Positions 1 through 37,586 of a stretch of DNA of 64,000 nt are shown here, in pieces (the stretch's first letter is position 1; each line of letters begins with the position of its first letter). A program made the position numbers and the translations under genes. Source of the DNA: Streptomyces achromogenes (GTDB lineage Bacteria; Actinomycetota; Actinomycetes; Streptomycetales; Streptomycetaceae); NCBI RefSeq assembly GCF_030816715.1, contig NZ_JAUSYH010000001.1, forward strand, positions 7,502,001 to 7,566,000, in the 5' to 3' direction. Below the pieces are notes generated by a model. It was not told the origin of the DNA. It saw only the letters and a list, made by a program, of their open reading frames with translations, and did not search any database.

Positions 1-357
1 GATCGCGGCGACTTCCGCCTGCGCGCCGTTCTGGGTGAGGTCCCCCAGGTGGGACAGGAACACGAGGTTCTCGTCCCCGCCCCGCGCCAGCAGATAGCGC
101 AGCGACGCCTCGACCGGCGCCCTGTCGATGCTCGGCCCGTCGAAGAGGTACTGCGTGTCGGGCATGACGGCGAGCGTGAAACGGCGGCTGTCGGGGTCCG
201 GGCGCCACCGGGCGGGAGCCGCCTCGGCGGTGGCCGGCAGTGCCAGGCCGGCCGTCGCGGCGGCGCCGAGCACGGCGGTGGCCCGCAGAAAGCCGCGTCT
301 GCCGGCGCCGGCAGACGCGACGGCCTCTTCCTGAATGTGGGCATGCGAAGTACACAC
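1..357 (-). CDS. Tat-exported metallophosphoesterase, N-terminal part
   Basis: This is the first 119 codons of a gene running off the left edge. The chosen start is a GTG at 357, placed 6 nt after a GGAG ribosome binding site. The N-terminus carries a twin-arginine signal (RRGFLRA at about residues 22-28), an Ala-rich hydrophobic stretch and an ALPATAEAA cleavage region, so export in folded form by Tat is inferred. Mature residues include the calcineurin-like motifs MPDTQY and SHLGDLTQNG, which in this superfamily bind the first metal ion and the phosphate ester. The substrate is unknown. Many actinomycete relatives have a C-terminal LamG or carbohydrate-binding domain, which would lie outside this window. 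It reads in the same direction as the decayed beta-galactosidase upstream of it. Confidence 0.8.
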   Translation of the reverse strand, partial: MCTSHAHIQEEAVASAGAGRRGFLRATAVLGAAATAGLALPATAEAAPARWRPDPDSRRFTLAVMPDTQYLFDGPSIDRAPVEASLRYLLARGGDENLVFLSHLGDLTQNGAQAEVAAI

Positions 358-397
358 GTGCTGCTCCGTTGCGAAGTCCGTTACCGGGGAGAGGGGT

Positions 398-1847
398 TCA
401 CAGGACGCGCAGGATCCAGCTCCAGCGGTGGACGCCTGCCGGGACGAGGTAGGAGGGGAGGGTGTCGGGGCCGCACGACGCGGTGCCGAGGCCGCGGTGC
501 GCGGAGTCCACGTGCACGACGCAGCCCCCGCGCGCGGTGAGCTCGTCGTGGTGGGCGACGGCCGTCAGGTCCTCGGCGCGGTAGCGCGTGACGGAGACCT
601 GGCGCGGCTCGTCCAGCGTGACCGCGAGCCCCGTGGCGTCCGGCGCCGAGAGCGTGAAGTGCCGCACGCCGTGCCGGCCGCCGCTCTCCTGCGGACGCAG
701 GTAGGGGGTGAAGGCCTCGTCGACGGCGAGCGAGTGATGGCCGACCGGCGCGCCCGAGCAGCGGTCGGGGTAGGACTCCCAAGGGCCCTGCCCGAACCAC
801 TCCAGCAGGTCCGGTCCCGCGATCGTCTCGAAGACCGAGCCGACCCGCGGCACGTCGTCGAACTCCTCCGGCAGTTCCGCCTGTTCGTCGATCCGCAGCC
901 CGCCCTCGACCGGCGTGAACACCTGCCGGTGCCGTACGACGCCGCCCGTGCCCGCGTACTCGGCGAGCACGGTCACGCCGTCGCCGTCCTGGTGCACGGA
1001 GACCAGCCTGCGCACGAGGGAGTCCGGGCCCCACGCCCGCCAGCGCCCCGCCATGCCGCCCAGTTCGTCGTTGTCGGTGGGCGCCCGCCACAGCGACAGC
1101 GTCGGCGCGGCGTGCAGCAGCGGGTGGACGAGGAGTCCGGCGGCGTCGGTCTCGACCCGGCCGGTCCCCGCCGCCGCCCCGAACGGCCCGGCCGTCCGCA
1201 GCCGTACCTGCGGCGCGCACACCGCGGTGCCGCGCGGCGCCCACGGCAGGTCCCGCGCCGTCGTCACCCGCAGCGTCAGCCATGCCTCGCCGCCGTCCGG
1301 CGGAAGGTCGAAGGGCAGCGGCAGCACGGCCGACCCGCCCGGCCGCAGGTCGGGCAGTTCGGCGGCCGCGGTGAGCGTGCCGCCGTGGGCGAGCGACAGC
1401 TCCCACTCGCCCGCGAGCCACTCCAGAGTGCGGAAGTGCTGGTGGTTGGCGACCACCACCCCGTCCTCCCGCAGGCCGTGCAGCCGTACCGGCGCGGCGA
1501 GTTCCCGGTGCTCGGACATCACCGGCTTGGGGGTGCGGTCGGGGAAGACCACGCCGTCCGCGATGAACGCGCCGTCGTGGTCCTGCTCGCCGAAGTCGCC
1601 GCCGTACGCCCAGCGGTAGCCGGGCGCGGCGACACCGTTGTCATAGAGTCCGGCGCCCCCACGCCCGACCGGTCTCGCGTCGTTCACACCCTGGAGGATG
1701 CCGTGGTCCCAGAACTCCCAGATGAACCCGCCCTGAAGACCCGGGGTGGCCTCGATGGCGGCCCAGTGGTCGGCCAGCGTGCCGTTGCTGTTGCCCATCG
1801 CGTGGGAGTACTCGCACTGGATGAGCGGCTTGGTCTGCCGCCCGTTC
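398..1847 (-). pseudogene. lacZ: beta-galactosidase (GH2), C-terminal half only
   Basis: About 483 codons remain of a protein that is normally near 1000 residues. The piece begins at the sequence NGRQTKPLIQCEYSHAMGNS, which contains the GH2 nucleophile glutamate (CEY), and runs through the C-terminal beta-sandwich to an intact TGA at 398. The sugar-binding domain, the immunoglobulin-like domain, the first half of the TIM barrel and the acid/base glutamate (NE motif) are missing, so it cannot be active. The open frame continues upstream for another 230 codons, but those translate antisense-like shadow sequence, not GH2. Upstream it is joined in a different frame to an ABC permease fragment near 1847. 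The remaining coding sequence shows no internal stop, so the deletion is either recent or the residue is tolerated. Confidence 0.85.
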
Positions 1848-1964
1848 CATGAAGGTGAAGACGCCGAGGAAGGCGAGGCCCGGCCGGACGACGGGCAGGG
1901 CCACGTGCCAGTACTGGCGCAGGAAGTGCGCGCCGTCGATGCGGGAGGCGTCGAGGAGCTCAGC
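1848..1964 (-). pseudogene. sugar ABC transporter permease, 39-codon fragment
   Basis: In a frame different from both neighbours, this strand encodes a run from AELLDASRIDGAHF through RQYWHVALPVVRP to GLAFLGVFTFM. This is the EAA loop and following membrane helix of a MalF/UgpA-type sugar permease, the segment that contacts the ATPase subunit (consensus EAAxxDGA-x8-IxLP). Family members are about 280-300 residues, so over 85 percent of the gene is gone on both sides. The left boundary is the junction with lacZ near 1847 and the right boundary is the junction with the kinase near 1964. It indicates that the ancestral operon had an ABC importer between a kinase and the beta-galactosidase. Confidence 0.8.
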
Positions 1965-2454
1965 CGTAGGCCCGCGCGAGCCCCTGGTCGGTGAGCGAGC
2001 GCCACCAGCGGTCGACGCCGTACCAGCCGGGCGCGGCGAGGGCGCCGCCGTGGTGCCGCACGGACAGGGAGGCGGCGAGGACGGCGAACCGCAGCCGCTC
2101 CGCCAGCGGCCAGCCGCCGAGCGAGGCCGCCACGAAACTCGCGCCGAACACGTCTCCGGCGCCGGTCGCGTCCAGGACGTCGACGTCCAGGGCGGGGACC
2201 TCCGCGTACTCGCCGGTCGTCTGGTCGACCGCGATCGCGCCGTGCGCGCCCCGGGTGACCACGGCCACCGGCACCAGCTCGGCGAGCGTGCCGAGCGCGG
2301 CGACCGCGCTGTCGGTGCGGGTGCACGCCGTCGCCTCGGTCTCGTTGGGGAGGAAGGCGTGGCACAGGGCCAGCTGATCGAGCAGGCCACCCGTGAGGAC
2401 GAGGTCGTAGAAGAGCAGCCCGGTGAGCAGCACCTCGGGCCGGTCGTCGTCCAC
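1965..2454 (-). pseudogene. PfkB-family sugar kinase with internal deletion
   Basis: The start is a GTG at 2454, about 6 nt after a GAGG ribosome binding site. The first 20 codons (VDDDRPEVLLTGLLFYDLVL) match the beginning of a PfkB/ribokinase fold. They are joined in frame, near 2386-2392, to a segment (LLDQLALCHAFLPNETEA) that normally lies around residue 180, so the lid and sugar-binding half are absent. The C-terminal half keeps the catalytic DATGAGD motif. Homology ends at about LARAYG; the open frame stops at 1960, just inside the permease fragment. A working kinase would need about 300-330 residues; only about 163 remain. The frame is preserved across the internal deletion, so a short protein may still be made, but sugar phosphorylation is not expected. 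Confidence 0.85.
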
Positions 2455-2480
2455 CGCACATCCTCTCGTCAAAAGTCTTC

Positions 2481-2559: not shown

Positions 2560-3345
2560 ATGACGAGTAGTGTTCACGTCGTGCTGGCAGAACGACGACA
2601 TCAACTCATCCTGCGGGCCCTGCGCGCCGGGGGCCCCGCGGCCGTGACCGATCTCTCCGAGGAGCTGGGTGTGAGCCCGGCCACGATCAGGCGCGACCTG
2701 GTCAGGCTCGAGGAGGACGGTCTGCTCACCCGGGTGCACGGCGGGGCCGTCGCGGAGCAGGGCGACCAGCCCCTCGCCGAGGTGGCCGAGGTGCGGGTGG
2801 CCGAGAAGGACGCGATAGCCGCCCGGGCCGCGGCGATGGTCGAGGACGGCCAGACGGTGCTGCTCGACATCGGCACCACCGCCTACCGGCTGGCCCGGCA
2901 GCTGCACGGCCGCAGACTCACGGTGATCACCAGCAACCTGGTGGTCTACGAGGAGCTCGCCGACGACGAGGGCATCGAGCTGGTGCTCCTCGGCGGCATG
3001 GTCCGCCGCGAGTACCGTTCCCTGGTGGGTTTCCTCACCGAGGACAACCTGCGCCAGCTGCACGCCGACTGGCTCTTCCTCGGCACCAGCGGAGTGCGCC
3101 CGGGCGGGCAGGTGATGGACACGACGGTCGTCGAGGTGCCGGTCAAACGGGCCATGATCAAGGCCGGCGGCAAGGTCGTCCTGCTGGCCGACGCGGCGAA
3201 GTTCCCGGGCAGGGGCATGGCGAAGGTCTGCGGTCCCGAGGACCTGGACGTGGTGGTGACGAACGGGCCGGTCGACCCGGCGACCCGGTCCTCCTTCGAG
3301 GAGGCGGGCGTCGAGGTGGTGCTGGCAGGAGAGGTGCAGGCGTGA
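2560..3345 (+). CDS. DeoR-family transcriptional regulator of sugar metabolism
   Basis: The protein has 261 residues. An N-terminal DeoR winged helix (AVTDLSEELGVSPATIRRDL, then LEEDGLLTRVHGGAV) is followed by a DeoR-type sugar-phosphate sensor domain with VLLDIGTTAYRLAR and TVITSNL, where GTT and the SNL region usually hold the phosphosugar effector. Family members usually repress until a phosphorylated sugar accumulates. I prefer the ATG at 2560, which lies 9 nt after a TAGATT -10-like box; a TTG at 2554 and a GTG at 2581 are alternatives, and none has a clear ribosome binding site. Its stop overlaps the start of the GH4 gene (GTGA), so the two are translationally coupled. Target genes are probably GH4, GH38 and the now-decayed divergent operon. 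Confidence 0.9.
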   Translation: MTSSVHVVLAERRHQLILRALRAGGPAAVTDLSEELGVSPATIRRDLVRLEEDGLLTRVHGGAVAEQGDQPLAEVAEVRVAEKDAIAARAAAMVEDGQTVLLDIGTTAYRLARQLHGRRLTVITSNLVVYEELADDEGIELVLLGGMVRREYRSLVGFLTEDNLRQLHADWLFLGTSGVRPGGQVMDTTVVEVPVKRAMIKAGGKVVLLADAAKFPGRGMAKVCGPEDLDVVVTNGPVDPATRSSFEEAGVEVVLAGEVQA

Positions 3346-4679
3346 AACTGACGATTCTGGGCGGCGGCGGCTTCCGGGTGCCGCTCGTGTACGGCGCGCT
3401 CCTGACGGACCGCGGCGAGGGGCGCGTCACCGACGTCGTCCTGCACGACCTGGACGACGACCGGCTGCGGGCGGTCGCCCGGGTGCTCGCGGAGCAGGCC
3501 GCCGCCGTGCCCGACGCCCCCCGGGTCACCGCCACCACCGACCTCGACGAGGCCTTGCGCGGCGCCGACTTCGTCTTCTCCGCGATCCGCGTCGGCGGCC
3601 TCGAGGGCCGGGCCGCCGACGAGCGGGTGGCCCTCGCCGAGGGCGTCCTCGGCCAGGAGACGGTCGGCGCCGGAGGCATCGCCTACGGTCTGCGGACCGT
3701 CCCCGTCGCCGTCGACATCGCCCGCCGGGCGGCCCGTCTCGCCCCCGACGCCTGGGTCATCAACTTCACCAACCCGGCGGGGCTCGTCACCGAGGCGATG
3801 TCCCGCCACCTCGGCGACCGCGTCATCGGCATCTGCGACTCGCCCGTCGGCCTCGGCCGCCGTATCGCCCGGGTGCTCGGCGCCGACCCGAAGCAGGCGT
3901 GGATCGACTACGTCGGCCTCAACCACCTCGGCTGGGTCCGCGGCCTGCGGATCGCCGGCCGCGACGAACTCCCGCGGCTGCTCGCCGACCCCGACCTGCT
4001 CGGCTCCTTCGAGGAAGGCAAGCTCTTCGGCGTCGACTGGCTGCAGTCCCTCGGCGCGATCCCCAACGAGTACCTGCACTACTACTACTTCAACCGGGAG
4101 ACCGTCCGCGCCTACCAGCAGGCCGAGAAGACCCGCGGCGCCTTCCTCGCCGACCAGCAGGCCCGCTTCTACGAGGAGATGCGCGACCCCGGCGCGGCGG
4201 CCCTGGCCGCCTGGGACCGCACCCGCGCCGAACGCGAGGCCACCTACATGGCCGAGAACCGGGAGAGCGCCGGGGCCGGCGAACGCGACGCCGACGACCT
4301 CTCCGGAGGCTACGAGAACGTCGCCCTCGCCCTGATGCGGGCCATCGCCCGCGACGAGCGCACCACCTTGATCCTCAACGTCCGCAACCAGGGCGCCCTG
4401 TCGGTGCTGGACGCCGACGCCGTGATCGAGGTGCCCTGCCTCGTCGACTCCGGCGGCGCCCATCCGGTGGCCGTCGCCCCGCTGCCCGAGCACGCCACCG
4501 GGCTGGTCTGCGCGGTGAAGGGCGTCGAACGCGAGGTGCTCGCCGCCGCCGGGTCCGGCTCCCGGGCGAGGGCCGTCAAGGCGTTCGCGCTGCATCCGCT
4601 GGTCGACTCGGTGAACGTGGCCCGACGGCTGGTCGAGGGCTACACCGACGTCCACCCAGGGCTCGCGTACCTTAAGTAG
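3342..4679 (+). CDS. GH4 family glycosidase (6-phospho-beta-glucosidase type)
   Basis: This 445-residue enzyme belongs to glycoside hydrolase family 4, which cleaves glycosides by NAD- and Mn-dependent oxidation-elimination and not by the usual acid-base route. Visible features are the N-terminal dinucleotide fold (MKLTILGGGGFR), the INFTNPAG motif at about 140, and the metal ligands Cys165 (GICDSP) and His195 (GLNHLGWV). Length matches the family. CDSP together with NHLGW fits the 6-phospho-beta-glucosidase branch better than the alpha-galactosidase/alpha-glucosidase branches, but substrate cannot be fixed from sequence. It overlaps the DeoR gene by 4 nt and is followed 94 nt later by the alpha-mannosidase. 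A phosphosugar substrate would fit a DeoR regulator, but no PTS component is visible here. Confidence 0.88.
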   Translation: MKLTILGGGGFRVPLVYGALLTDRGEGRVTDVVLHDLDDDRLRAVARVLAEQAAAVPDAPRVTATTDLDEALRGADFVFSAIRVGGLEGRAADERVALAEGVLGQETVGAGGIAYGLRTVPVAVDIARRAARLAPDAWVINFTNPAGLVTEAMSRHLGDRVIGICDSPVGLGRRIARVLGADPKQAWIDYVGLNHLGWVRGLRIAGRDELPRLLADPDLLGSFEEGKLFGVDWLQSLGAIPNEYLHYYYFNRETVRAYQQAEKTRGAFLADQQARFYEEMRDPGAAALAAWDRTRAEREATYMAENRESAGAGERDADDLSGGYENVALALMRAIARDERTTLILNVRNQGALSVLDADAVIEVPCLVDSGGAHPVAVAPLPEHATGLVCAVKGVEREVLAAAGSGSRARAVKAFALHPLVDSVNVARRLVEGYTDVHPGLAYLK

Positions 4680-4773: not shown

Positions 4774-7700
4774 ATGCATGACGAACGCCGCCGCATCGAG
4801 GAGCGCGTCGAGCGCGTCCACAACCAGCGCGTCAAGCCCGCGGTCTACGCGGCCACCGTGCCCCTCGAGGTCGAGGCCTGGCAGGCGCCGGGGGAGCCGG
4901 TGAGCTTCGAGGAGGCCGCGGCCGCCGCCTACGAGCCGTTCGCCATGGACACCCCGTGGGGCCCGCCCTGGGGCACCACCTGGTTCCGGATGCGCGGCCG
5001 GGTGCCCGCCGAATGGGCCGGCCGGCGCGTCGAGGCCGTCATCGACCTCGGCTTCGTCGGCGACTGGCCCGGCAACCAGGCCGAGGCCCTCGTCCACCGC
5101 ACCGACGGGACGCCGCTGAAGGCCGTCAACCCGCTCAACCAGTACGTGCCGATCGGCAACCCTGCGACGGGCGGCGAGAGCGTCGACTACCTCGTCGAGG
5201 CGGCCTCCAACCCCGACATCCTGGCCGGCGACTTCGCCGCGCCGACCCCGCTCGGCGACGTGCTGACGGCCGGCGACCGTCCGCTGTACACCTTCCGCCG
5301 CGCCGACCTCGCCGTCCTCGACGAGCAGGTCTGGCACCTCGACCTCGACCTCCAGGTGCTGCGCGGGCTGATGGTCCACCTCGCCGAGCACGAGCCGCGC
5401 CGCCACGAGATCATGCACGCCCTGGACCGGGCCATGGACACCCTCGACCTGGACGACGTCTCCGGCAGCGCCGCCGCCGTCCGCGAGGTCCTCGCCCCGG
5501 TCCTGGCCCGGCCCGCGCACGCCAGCGCCCACACCATCTCCGGCGTCGGTCACGCGCACATCGACTCCGCCTGGCTGTGGCCGATCCGCGAGACCAAGCG
5601 CAAGACCTCCCGCACCTTCTCCAACGTCACCGCGCTCGCCGACGAGTACGAGGACTTCGTCTTCGCCTGCTCCCAGGCCCAGCAGTACGAGTGGGTGCGC
5701 GACAACTACCCGCACGTGTGGGCGCGCATCCAGGAGTCGGTGAAGAAGGGACAGTGGGTCCCGGTCGGCGGCATGTGGGTCGAGTCCGACGGCAACCTGC
5801 CCGGCGGCGAGGCCATCGCCCGGCAGCTCGTCCACGGCAAGCGGTTCTTCCTCGAGCACTTCGGCGTCGAGACCAGGGGTGTCTGGCTGCCGGACTCCTT
5901 CGGCTACAACGCGGCCTACCCCCAGCTCGCCAAGCTCGCCGGCAACGACTGGTTCCTCACCCAGAAGATCTCCTGGAACCAGACCAACAAGTTCCCCCAC
6001 CACACCTTCTGGTGGGAGGGCATCGACGGCACCCGCATCTTCACCCACTTCCCGCCGGTCGACACCTACAACGCCCGCTTCAGCGGCGAGGAGATGGACC
6101 GCGCGGTGCGCAACTACTCCGAGAAGGGCGGCGGTACGCGTTCCCTCGCCCCCTTCGGCTGGGGAGACGGCGGCGGCGGTCCCACCCGCGAGATCATGGA
6201 ACGGGCCCGCCGGCTCGCCGACCTGGAAGGCTCGCCGAAGGTCGTCGTCGAGCACCCCGACGTCTTCTTCGCCAAGGCCCGCGAGGAATACCCGGACGCC
6301 CCGGTGTGGGTGGGCGAGCTCTACCTGGAGCTGCACCGCGCCACCTACACCACGCAGGCACGCACCAAACAAGGCAACCGACGGTCCGAACACCGGCTCC
6401 GCGAAGCCGAGTTGTGGGCGACCACGGCCGCGCTGCACGCGCCGGGCTACGCCTACCCGTACGACCGGCTCGACCGGCTCTGGAAGACGGTGCTGCTGCA
6501 CCAGTTCCACGACATCCTGCCGGGCTCCTCGATCGCCTGGGTGCACCGCGAGGCTGAGGCCGAGTACGCCCGGGTCGCCGGGGAGCTGGAGGCGCTGACC
6601 GCCGAGGCGGTCGCCGCGCTGGGCGCGGGCGCCACCCGGGTGTTCAACACCAGCCCCTACGACCGCGCCGAGGTCCTCCGCACCTCCGCGGGGGCGCCGG
6701 CCTACGTGGAGGTCCCCGCGAACGGCACCGCGCCCCTGGCCGCGCCCACCGTCGGGTCCCCGCAGCCGGTGACGGTCACCGGCCTGACCCTCGACAACGG
6801 CCTGGTCCGCGTGGAGCTGGCGGCGGACGGCACGCTGTCCTCGGTGCGCGACCTGCGCGCGGACCGCGAGGTCCTCGCCGGCCCCGGCAACCTGCTCCGC
6901 CTGCACACGGACCTGCCCAACTACTGGGACGCCTGGGACATCGACAAGCACTACAAGAACCGTTTCACGGACCTGCTCGACCCGGACTCGGTCACCGTCG
7001 TCGAGGACGACCCGCTGCTCGGCGCCCTGCGCGTCACCCGGTCCTTCGGCAAGGGCTCGACCCTCACCCAGACGATCACCCTCCGGGCCGGCAGCCCCCG
7101 CGTCGACATCGAGACCGACCTCGACTGGCACGAGGCCGAGAAGATCCTCAAGGCCGCCTTCCCGGTCGACGTCCGCGCGCCGCACTCGTCCGCCGAGATC
7201 CAGTTCGGCCACGTCCAGCGGCCCACCCACACCAACACCAGCTGGGAGGCGGCCCGTTTCGAGGTCTCCGGCCACCGCTGGGTGCACGTCGGCGAACCCG
7301 GCTACGGCGTCGCGGTCCTCAACGACTCGACGTACGGCCACGACGTCTCCCGCACGGTCCGCGAGGACGGCGGCACGACGACCACGGTCGCCCTCAGCCT
7401 GGTGCGCGCCCCGCGCATCCCGGACCCCGAGGCCGACCAGGGCCGGCACCGCTTCACGTACTCCCTGCTGCCCGGCGCCACGATCGCGGACGCGGTCGCC
7501 GAGGGCTACGCCCTCAACCTGCCGTTGCGGGTGGCCGAGTCGGCCGGCGCCGCGGAGCCGGTCGTGTCCGTGGACGGCGACGGCGTGACCGTGGAGGCCG
7601 TCAAGCTCGCCGACGACCGGTCGGGCGACGTCGTGGTGCGGCTGTACGAGTCCCGCGGCGGACGGGCCCGGGGCGTGCTGCGCGCCGGCTTCCCGCTGGC

Positions 7701-7836
7701 CGGCGCGGAGGTCACCGACCTGCTGGAACGGCCGCTGGAGGAGGAGGCCGCCGCCGCGGTGCCCGGCGACGGCACGGTCGAGGTGACCCTGCGCCCCTTC
7801 CAGATCCTGACGCTGCGACTGCGCCGGGGCGCGTGA
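4774..7836 (+). CDS. GH38 alpha-mannosidase
   Basis: This 1020-residue protein is a family 38 alpha-mannosidase, a zinc-dependent retaining exo-glycosidase acting on alpha-mannosides. The catalytic domain has the metal-binding HIDSAWLW motif (His262, Asp264) and the nucleophile Asp374 in WLPDSFGYNA. Middle and C-terminal regions are the helical and beta-sandwich domains normal for the family. There is no signal peptide, so it probably works in the cytoplasm on imported mannosides. I chose the ATG at 4774 because a GGAG lies 7 nt upstream; a GTG at 4750 would add 8 residues without a good site. It appears to be the last gene of the DeoR-GH4-GH38 unit and is followed by a strong hairpin at 7904-7948. 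Confidence 0.93.
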   Translation: MHDERRRIEERVERVHNQRVKPAVYAATVPLEVEAWQAPGEPVSFEEAAAAAYEPFAMDTPWGPPWGTTWFRMRGRVPAEWAGRRVEAVIDLGFVGDWPGNQAEALVHRTDGTPLKAVNPLNQYVPIGNPATGGESVDYLVEAASNPDILAGDFAAPTPLGDVLTAGDRPLYTFRRADLAVLDEQVWHLDLDLQVLRGLMVHLAEHEPRRHEIMHALDRAMDTLDLDDVSGSAAAVREVLAPVLARPAHASAHTISGVGHAHIDSAWLWPIRETKRKTSRTFSNVTALADEYEDFVFACSQAQQYEWVRDNYPHVWARIQESVKKGQWVPVGGMWVESDGNLPGGEAIARQLVHGKRFFLEHFGVETRGVWLPDSFGYNAAYPQLAKLAGNDWFLTQKISWNQTNKFPHHTFWWEGIDGTRIFTHFPPVDTYNARFSGEEMDRAVRNYSEKGGGTRSLAPFGWGDGGGGPTREIMERARRLADLEGSPKVVVEHPDVFFAKAREEYPDAPVWVGELYLELHRATYTTQARTKQGNRRSEHRLREAELWATTAALHAPGYAYPYDRLDRLWKTVLLHQFHDILPGSSIAWVHREAEAEYARVAGELEALTAEAVAALGAGATRVFNTSPYDRAEVLRTSAGAPAYVEVPANGTAPLAAPTVGSPQPVTVTGLTLDNGLVRVELAADGTLSSVRDLRADREVLAGPGNLLRLHTDLPNYWDAWDIDKHYKNRFTDLLDPDSVTVVEDDPLLGALRVTRSFGKGSTLTQTITLRAGSPRVDIETDLDWHEAEKILKAAFPVDVRAPHSSAEIQFGHVQRPTHTNTSWEAARFEVSGHRWVHVGEPGYGVAVLNDSTYGHDVSRTVREDGGTTTTVALSLVRAPRIPDPEADQGRHRFTYSLLPGATIADAVAEGYALNLPLRVAESAGAAEPVVSVDGDGVTVEAVKLADDRSGDVVVRLYESRGGRARGVLRAGFPLAGAEVTDLLERPLEEEAAAAVPGDGTVEVTLRPFQILTLRLRRGA

Positions 7837-36534: not shown

Positions 36535-37586
36535 TGGGCGATGCGGTGGAACTGGAAGCAGCCGGCCGGACGGTGCGCCTGTCCAGCCCGGACAAGGTGT
36601 TCTTCCCGGAGCGCGGCTTCACCAAGCTGGACCTCGCCCGCTACTACCAGACGGTCGCCCCGGGCATCCTGCGCGCCCTGCGCAACCGCCCCACCACCCT
36701 GGAGCGCTACCCAGACGGAGTGACCGGGGAGTCCTTCTTCCAGAAGCGGGCGCCCAAGAACATGCCCGACTGGATCCCGACCGCGCACATCACCTTTCCC
36801 AGCGGACGCAGCGCCGACGAGATGTGCCCGACGGAGGAGGCGGCCGTCCTGTGGGCCGCCCAGTACGGCACCCTCACCTTCCACCCGTGGCCGGTGCGCC
36901 GCACCGACGTGGACCGTCCCGACGAACTGCGCATCGACCTCGACCCGCAGCCCGGCACCGACTACGACGACGCCGTCCGCGCCGCCCACGAACTGCGGTC
37001 CGTGCTGGACGAGTTCGGCGGTCTGCGCGGCTGGCCCAAGACCTCCGGCGGGCGCGGCCTGCATGTCTTCGTGCCGATCGAGCCACGCTGGACCTTCACC
37101 CAGGTCCGGCGCGCCGCCATCGCCGTGGGCCGGGAGATGGAGCGGCGGATGCCGGACCAGGTGACCATCCGCTGGTGGAAGGAGGAACGCGGCGAGCGCA
37201 TCTTCGTCGACTACAACCAGACCGCCCGCGACCGCACCATCGCCTCCGCCTACTCCGTACGTCCGCGCCCGCACGCTCCCGTCTCGGCGCCGCTGCGCTG
37301 GGAGGAGGTGGGCGAGGCCCACCCCCGCGACTTCGACATCGCGAGCATGCCCGCCCGTTACGCCGAACTCGGCGACGTCCACGCCGACATGGACGACCAC
37401 GCCTTCTCCCTCGACGCCCTCCTCGACCTGGCCCGGCGCGACGAGCACGACCACGGCCTCGGCGACCTGCCGTATCCGCCGGAGTACCCGAAGATGCCGG
37501 GTGAGCCGAAGCGGGTGCAGCCCAGCAGGGCGAAGAAGGGGGCGTCCGACGCGGAAGAGCCCCCGGCGGGCGCCACGACCCCCTGA
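36534..37586 (+). CDS. LigD-type DNA polymerase/primase domain protein
   Basis: The 350-residue protein is a free-standing LigD polymerase domain of the archaeo-eukaryotic primase superfamily. In non-homologous end joining it fills gaps and prefers ribonucleotides. Signatures are LSSPDKVFFPERGFTK near the N-terminus, LRIDLDPQPGTDYDD (metal-binding Asp-x-Asp), KTSGGRGLHVFVPI and FVDYNQTARDRTIASAYSVR. There is no ligase or nuclease domain, so it would work with the separate LigC-type ligase encoded divergently 118 nt away. Ku is not in this window. Confidence 0.92.
   Translation: MGDAVELEAAGRTVRLSSPDKVFFPERGFTKLDLARYYQTVAPGILRALRNRPTTLERYPDGVTGESFFQKRAPKNMPDWIPTAHITFPSGRSADEMCPTEEAAVLWAAQYGTLTFHPWPVRRTDVDRPDELRIDLDPQPGTDYDDAVRAAHELRSVLDEFGGLRGWPKTSGGRGLHVFVPIEPRWTFTQVRRAAIAVGREMERRMPDQVTIRWWKEERGERIFVDYNQTARDRTIASAYSVRPRPHAPVSAPLRWEEVGEAHPRDFDIASMPARYAELGDVHADMDDHAFSLDALLDLARRDEHDHGLGDLPYPPEYPKMPGEPKRVQPSRAKKGASDAEEPPAGATTP

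Follow-up and report, generated by a model that had tools for sequence, protein, structure and literature searches.

Organization of the remnant operon

We characterized a locus of the Streptomyces achromogenes genome (G000) within a 64,000-nucleotide stretch of DNA (the window; G000:C1:7502001–7566000), using two sister species (G109 and G225, ~95% identical) as references. Left of a DeoR-family regulator gene, the alignments revealed remnants of a five-gene operon (β-galactosidase–permease–permease–binding protein–pfkB) as four blocks on the minus strand, in the original order and with no spacers (window positions 1–1844, 1847–1961, 1962–2386 and 2389 onward). Three deletions removed 5.1 of 7.2 kb, or ~70% of the operon length: the distance from the pfkB start to the β-galactosidase stop is 7,215 bp in G109 and 2,075 bp in the window. 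Nothing remains of two of the five genes, those encoding the first permease and the substrate-binding protein. Every block aligns over its full length to both siblings at 93.9–100% identity and, given these end-to-end alignments, the four-block arrangement is beyond chance. An earlier note, made from the letters of this DNA alone, had described three in-order fragments; the order and orientation hold, and the count becomes four blocks separated by three junctions.

The largest remnant (398–1844, minus strand) is the C-terminal half of a GH2 (LacZ-type) β-galactosidase, which aligned without gaps to G109 and G225 (95.9% and 95.6% by blastn) and retains the Pfam domains Glyco_hydro_2_C (profile positions 201–300), LacZ_4 and Bgal_small_N. 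It is followed by codons 178–216 of the second ABC permease (1847–1961, minus strand; 95.7% and 93.9%; family BPD_transp_1, assigned from the G109 gene). The PfkB-family kinase is represented by its C-terminal part from approximately codon 189 (1962–2386, minus strand; 95.5% and 94.6%; Pfam PfkB profile positions 177–298), which contains the GAGD motif, and by its first 28 codons with a TTG start (2389–2472, minus strand), which are identical (100%) in both siblings. The two kinase pieces are joined in frame, as had been noted for a start fragment given as 20 codons rather than 28. The 39-codon permease piece was likewise recognized correctly from the letters, but the pfkB, permease and β-galactosidase remnants lie in three different reading frames and the kinase open reading frame ends at 1960 in a stop codon formed across junction J2. 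A fused functional product is ruled out by the three frames together with this stop. Junction J3 cuts the β-galactosidase at codon 471 (G109 protein numbering), so that an N-E-S motif (codons 411–413) is lost and CEYSHAMGNS (481–490) is kept. In LacZ-type enzymes, these regions hold the acid/base and the nucleophile, so that the β-galactosidase remnant should be inactive.

The adjoining genes on the plus strand have whole reading frames, in agreement with the earlier description of an intact flanking unit: the DeoR-family regulator, divergent from the operon (2587–3345; Pfam HTH_DeoR and DeoRC), a GH4 glycosidase (3342–4679; Glyco_hydro_4 and 4C) and a GH38 α-mannosidase-type gene (4774–7836; Glyco_hydro_38N/C). 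The GH4 and GH38 genes have dN/dS values of 0.12 and 0.17. We infer from its position that the DeoR protein controlled this operon. Its private changes in S. achromogenes comprise 5 nonsynonymous and 4 synonymous substitutions, whereas G109 and G225 combined have 1 and 18 (Fisher P = 0.007, an unplanned test). Selection on the regulator may therefore have begun to relax once a target was lost.

The operon in related genomes

Both siblings carry the whole operon at the same locus. In G109, Pfam analysis identified intact genes for the GH2 β-galactosidase, two BPD_transp_1 permeases, a solute-binding protein and the PfkB kinase; block alignment showed the same operon spacing as in G109, in which the genes were named, for G225, G061 and G261, and approximately 1 kb extra between the β-galactosidase and permease 2 blocks, by alignment spacing, for G192, G083 and G274. 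We further collected 80 named loci (L167–L246) with the DeoR protein and then matched the operon genes upstream. Both permeases and the binding protein were present at 73 of these. Among the seven loci without them, five (L206, L209, L217, L219 and L236) have at most ~1.2 kb upstream of deoR in the record, which is too short to show transporter genes. At the other two, L169 (Streptomyces indiaensis) and L239 (Streptomyces sp. 378), the greater part of this operon has apparently been lost (pfkB matched over 78% and 19%, respectively), and these look like further losses of the operon.

Across the 80 loci, permease 2 showed 83–94% identity to G109 in 46 and 53–57% in 27, with none found in 7, and the best segments of the β-galactosidase and pfkB genes showed 73–88% identity. 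The transporter cassette thus occupies one slot in two forms, as if cassettes had been exchanged within an operon that is otherwise conserved.

Structure of the deletion junctions

Aligning the region to the intact operons and inspecting each junction, as the earlier note had proposed, confirmed the three deletions. J1 (2387–2388) lacks 482 bp (G109) or 485 bp (G225) and carries two extra bases (CC); the net loss (480 and 483 bp, respectively) is a multiple of three and leaves the kinase join in frame, whereas the J2 and J3 joins are out of frame. J2 (1961–1962) is blunt, lacks 2,967 bp (G109) or 2,982 bp (G225), and takes with it permease 1, the binding protein and the ends of their neighbours. 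J3 (1845–1846) lacks 1,695 bp relative to both siblings and carries two extra bases (TT), with no repeat. With added bases ignored, the microhomology amounts to 1 bp at J1 and 0 bp at J2 and J3, and comparison with G109 and G225 found no direct repeats at the deletion ends of any of the three joins. With no repeats at the joins, recombination between short direct repeats is not supported, and neither is the recurrent recombination at short homologies that had been suggested for this locus. Deletions with short overlaps do occur elsewhere in the same genomes (8 bases at G000 index 605172 and 13 at G109 index 576881), which makes the contrast with J1–J3 a genuine one. Deletion mediated by an insertion sequence (IS) is also ruled out: the blocks abut directly or with two bases between them, with no IS or IS end. 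The earlier reading of at least three precise deletions with no insertion element at the joins was thus borne out by the alignments.

Distribution and age of the collapse

To our reading of the genomes examined, the collapse looks private to S. achromogenes. Of 392 genus genomes, 114 gave a match at E = 1e-10 to a 231-bp probe spanning J3 and J2 (scoring covered no more than two candidates in each genome, and the listed matches are stronger than ~1e-14). Among the matches listed, only G000 matched probe positions 1–231, and the others matched its pieces apart; one genome (G316) gave a paralogue-like match (positions 48–172, 76%) that extends a few bases past J3. In a separate genus-wide scan, 61 of the 392 genomes had no score. 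The J2 pattern gave no match in a search of genome contigs, a search whose range possibly left out the source genome and its near relatives. Searched with up to three mismatches in 199 relatives, it matched 25 genomes: G000 with none, and the other 24 (25 rows) with three mismatches each. The reversed pattern, used as a control, matched 10 genomes; the three-mismatch rows are thus more numerous than in the control. With each species represented by one genome, we found no strain that carries a subset of the three deletions.

The three larger blocks (1,987 bp) contain no gap relative to G109 or G225, and no stop codon interrupts the β-galactosidase, the C-terminal kinase part or the permease piece, in keeping with the few or no point lesions reported from the letters. 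Over these blocks, G109 and G225 are 91.3–96.5% identical to each other, similar to the identity of the remnants to each. Private changes in the β-galactosidase and pfkB remnants (synonymous/nonsynonymous) numbered 20/20 in S. achromogenes, against 24/11 and 21/22 in G109 and G225, and none of them created a stop. The 20 nonsynonymous changes observed in S. achromogenes compare with 14.7 expected under sibling constraint and 53.5 under none, which corresponds by hand interpolation to ~0.14 of the branch spent as a pseudogene; fractions of 0.3 and 0.4 give P = 0.13 and P = 0.03, respectively. A stricter count over fewer sites gave β-galactosidase dN/dS values of 0.42 in S. achromogenes and 0.21 and 0.42 in the siblings. 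Given the gap-free blocks, the lack of stops and the sibling-like identity and substitution counts, the deletions are recent relative to the species split. Recent deletion had been proposed in the earlier note subject to a search for the same collapse in other strains; among the matches listed from the 392 genus genomes, only G000 showed it.

Deletion clusters in S. achromogenes and its sisters

Private deletions of ≥50 bp were counted in sequence shared three ways among G000, G109 and G225 (196, 190 and 205 kb). S. achromogenes has six, three of them in this operon, G109 has six and G225 has two. A seventh in G109 (236 bp, lying 172 bp from a 2,294-bp deletion) is clean against G000 only and not against G225. 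The private deletions fall into 11 loci (four, five and two in G000, G109 and G225), some with untidy joins (G000 551914 and 623865; G225 538547), and three of the 11 are clusters—the operon described here and two in G109. In one G109 cluster, 323 and 939 bp were deleted around 113 bp kept (7644497–7644609; island identity 90%; 0–1 bp microhomology); in the other, 2,294 and 236 bp were deleted around 172 bp kept (G109:C1:7621703–7621875; island identity 87%). A further G109 pair (2,421 and 372 bp) has uncertain polarity. Under uniform placement, spacing this tight has P = 0.0015 for G000 (6 deletions) and 0.0004 for G109 (7 deletions). When deletions were confined to one-tenth of the sequence, a fraction that we assumed as a model of relaxed selection, the values became 0.11 for G000 (two spacings of ≤425 bp among six deletions) and 0.045 for G109.

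We additionally scanned an unpolarized 530-kb pairwise alignment of G000 and G225. The pairwise scans yielded 11 distinct pairs of neighbouring deletions in the same genome with ≤1,000 bp kept between them versus two pairs in opposite genomes (duplicates were removed by hand). Among the other islands, eight of nine have 84–90% identity and one (603 bp) has 93.7%, whereas the two islands here have 95.5–95.7% identity to G109; the lower identity elsewhere arises partly from less conserved surroundings (for example, 87% around G000 6786650–6790649). The alignment chains are colinear and on the plus strand, so that island order and strand are built in and provide no evidence. Only the filler sequences in the gaps were searched on both strands; among the matches listed (at most three per gap), 12 lie on the same strand and 2 are inverted, many of them weak. 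Approximately 715 kb to the left of the window, G000:C1:6786455–6790687 shows successive gaps against G225 (407, 818, 322 and 2,211 bp) with islands of 70 and 185 bp and with less clean gaps at both ends; this unpolarized stack is apparently another multi-deletion locus in the same genome.

Several deletions in one locus are not exceptional. The view that the multiple deletions here are unusual consequently stands only in part, given the clusters in G109 and the unpolarized ones at other sites of G000. Among the publications listed in our search, none dealt with bacterial deletion clusters whose islands stay in order, which does not prove that there are none.

Origin of the deletions

For Streptomyces ambofaciens, PMC5869714 describes scars left after I-SceI breaks, with deletions of 191–23,591 bp, microhomologies of 1–6 nt in 50% of scars, bases added in 40% (a single untemplated base or 1–4 nt of fill-in) and, in two clones, inserted 42- or 83-bp pieces from nearby; one Kan-sensitive clone was recovered without KuA and none without LigC/LigD. 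J1–J3 resemble such non-homologous end-joining (NHEJ) scars, with 0–1 bp of homology and short additions at two of the three joins. The likeness to the scars of PMC5869714 extends to the deletion sizes, the little or no microhomology and the occasional local pieces at the scar; in contrast to those scars, the ones here are natural rather than nuclease-induced, and three occur in one operon. The additions at J1 and J3 comprise two bases each, whereas the untemplated additions described there were single bases (1–4 with fill-in; PMC5869714), a point against an end-joining origin. The S. achromogenes genome contains one locus for Ku (PF02735; the profile matches in 1 of 14 control genomes) and three for the LigD polymerase (ligD_pol, TIGR02778) above curated cut-offs (1 of 14 control genomes matches). 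One of the three genes with the LigD-polymerase domain lies in the window itself (36573–37313, plus strand). For the three deletions, we infer end joining as the best mechanism.

The explanation that we regard as probable is a young pseudo-operon produced by stepwise end-joining decay of a dispensable operon in the chromosome arm. A five-gene operon for sugar uptake and hydrolysis would have become dispensable, and NHEJ of the Ku/LigD type would have made the three deletions, leaving four in-order remnants; the deletions would have arrived stepwise under relaxed selection and not in one episode. Loss would have been tolerated because other GH2 homologues remain, two or more of them almost complete: matches in S. 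achromogenes lie at 8.97 Mb (codons 8–938) and 6.81 Mb (codons 31–949), and a third at 7.33 Mb is split within a 1,388-amino-acid frame. Ordinary bacterial pseudogenes and decaying operons have intact orthologues in sister species, loss-of-function deletions and remaining paralogues, all of which are shared here. They differ from this locus in that every lesion here is a deletion of 0.5–3 kb, with no stop, small indel or clear amino-acid excess in the remnants, so that the decay is young. Three deletions with no other decay are somewhat more than slow stepwise loss leads one to expect, which counts against stepwise decay.

It is possible, if unlikely, that the collapse happened in a single episode, in which one damaged stretch (with several double-strand breaks, or with one break and heavy resection) was rejoined while local 115- and 425-bp pieces were kept or captured in their order and orientation. 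In favour of this, the deletions are all young, with no intermediate form among the genomes examined; the spacing is tighter than uniform placement predicts; the cluster is fresher than most, as the island identities indicate; and insertion of nearby pieces during end joining is described in S. ambofaciens (PMC5869714). Against this, confinement to dispensable genes accounts for much of the clustering, and the gap fillers elsewhere are mainly same-strand among the matches listed, though many are weak. Stepwise decay is favoured because both pieces keep their order and orientation, for which random capture gives 1 in 8, and because the sister G109 likewise has clusters of two deletions around a short island in one genome, with islands more diverged than those here and probably older. 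We are slightly more doubtful still of the general form of the one-episode idea, that bacterial end joining can remove several neighbouring segments per episode and leave 100–400-bp islands in order, and that genes in Streptomyces arms are commonly lost in this way.

Serial replication slippage or template switching, in which one nascent strand would have skipped ahead three times between short homologies, is very unlikely: the mechanism would keep order, but the joins themselves have no repeat, and slippage does not typically span 0.5–3 kb where homology is lacking. The four-mers at the joins (GGCC, GCTC and CGTT) do recur in G109, 7–8 bases into the deleted flank on the right; the chance of such recurrence within 15 nt is 0.15, 0.08 and 0.03, the pattern was noticed after the fact, and G225 has GGTC rather than GCTC at J2, so that the case for the four-mers as templated filler is weak. 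Least probable of all is an assembly or consensus artefact in an organism that holds the intact operon, a possibility raised when the locus was first described. Poor assemblies can produce small deletions, but this one is a 9.17-Mb single contig rated 100% complete, the joins have no repeats and carry two-base additions, the surviving blocks are gap-free and G109 has similar private deletions.

Significance for gene loss in Streptomyces

The locus is a clear, well-preserved example of a known process, recent gene loss, and is in that sense essentially ordinary. The recurrent deletion islands in a sister species raise the question of whether multi-deletion scars are single events; if so, multi-segment loss in one episode would be a small-scale analogue of the clustered rearrangements of eukaryotes. 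In S. achromogenes, the loss of an operon has been caught early, with every breakpoint readable and the intact state retained in the sisters, so that the locus offers a clean case from nature of Streptomyces gene loss that was apparently driven by end joining.
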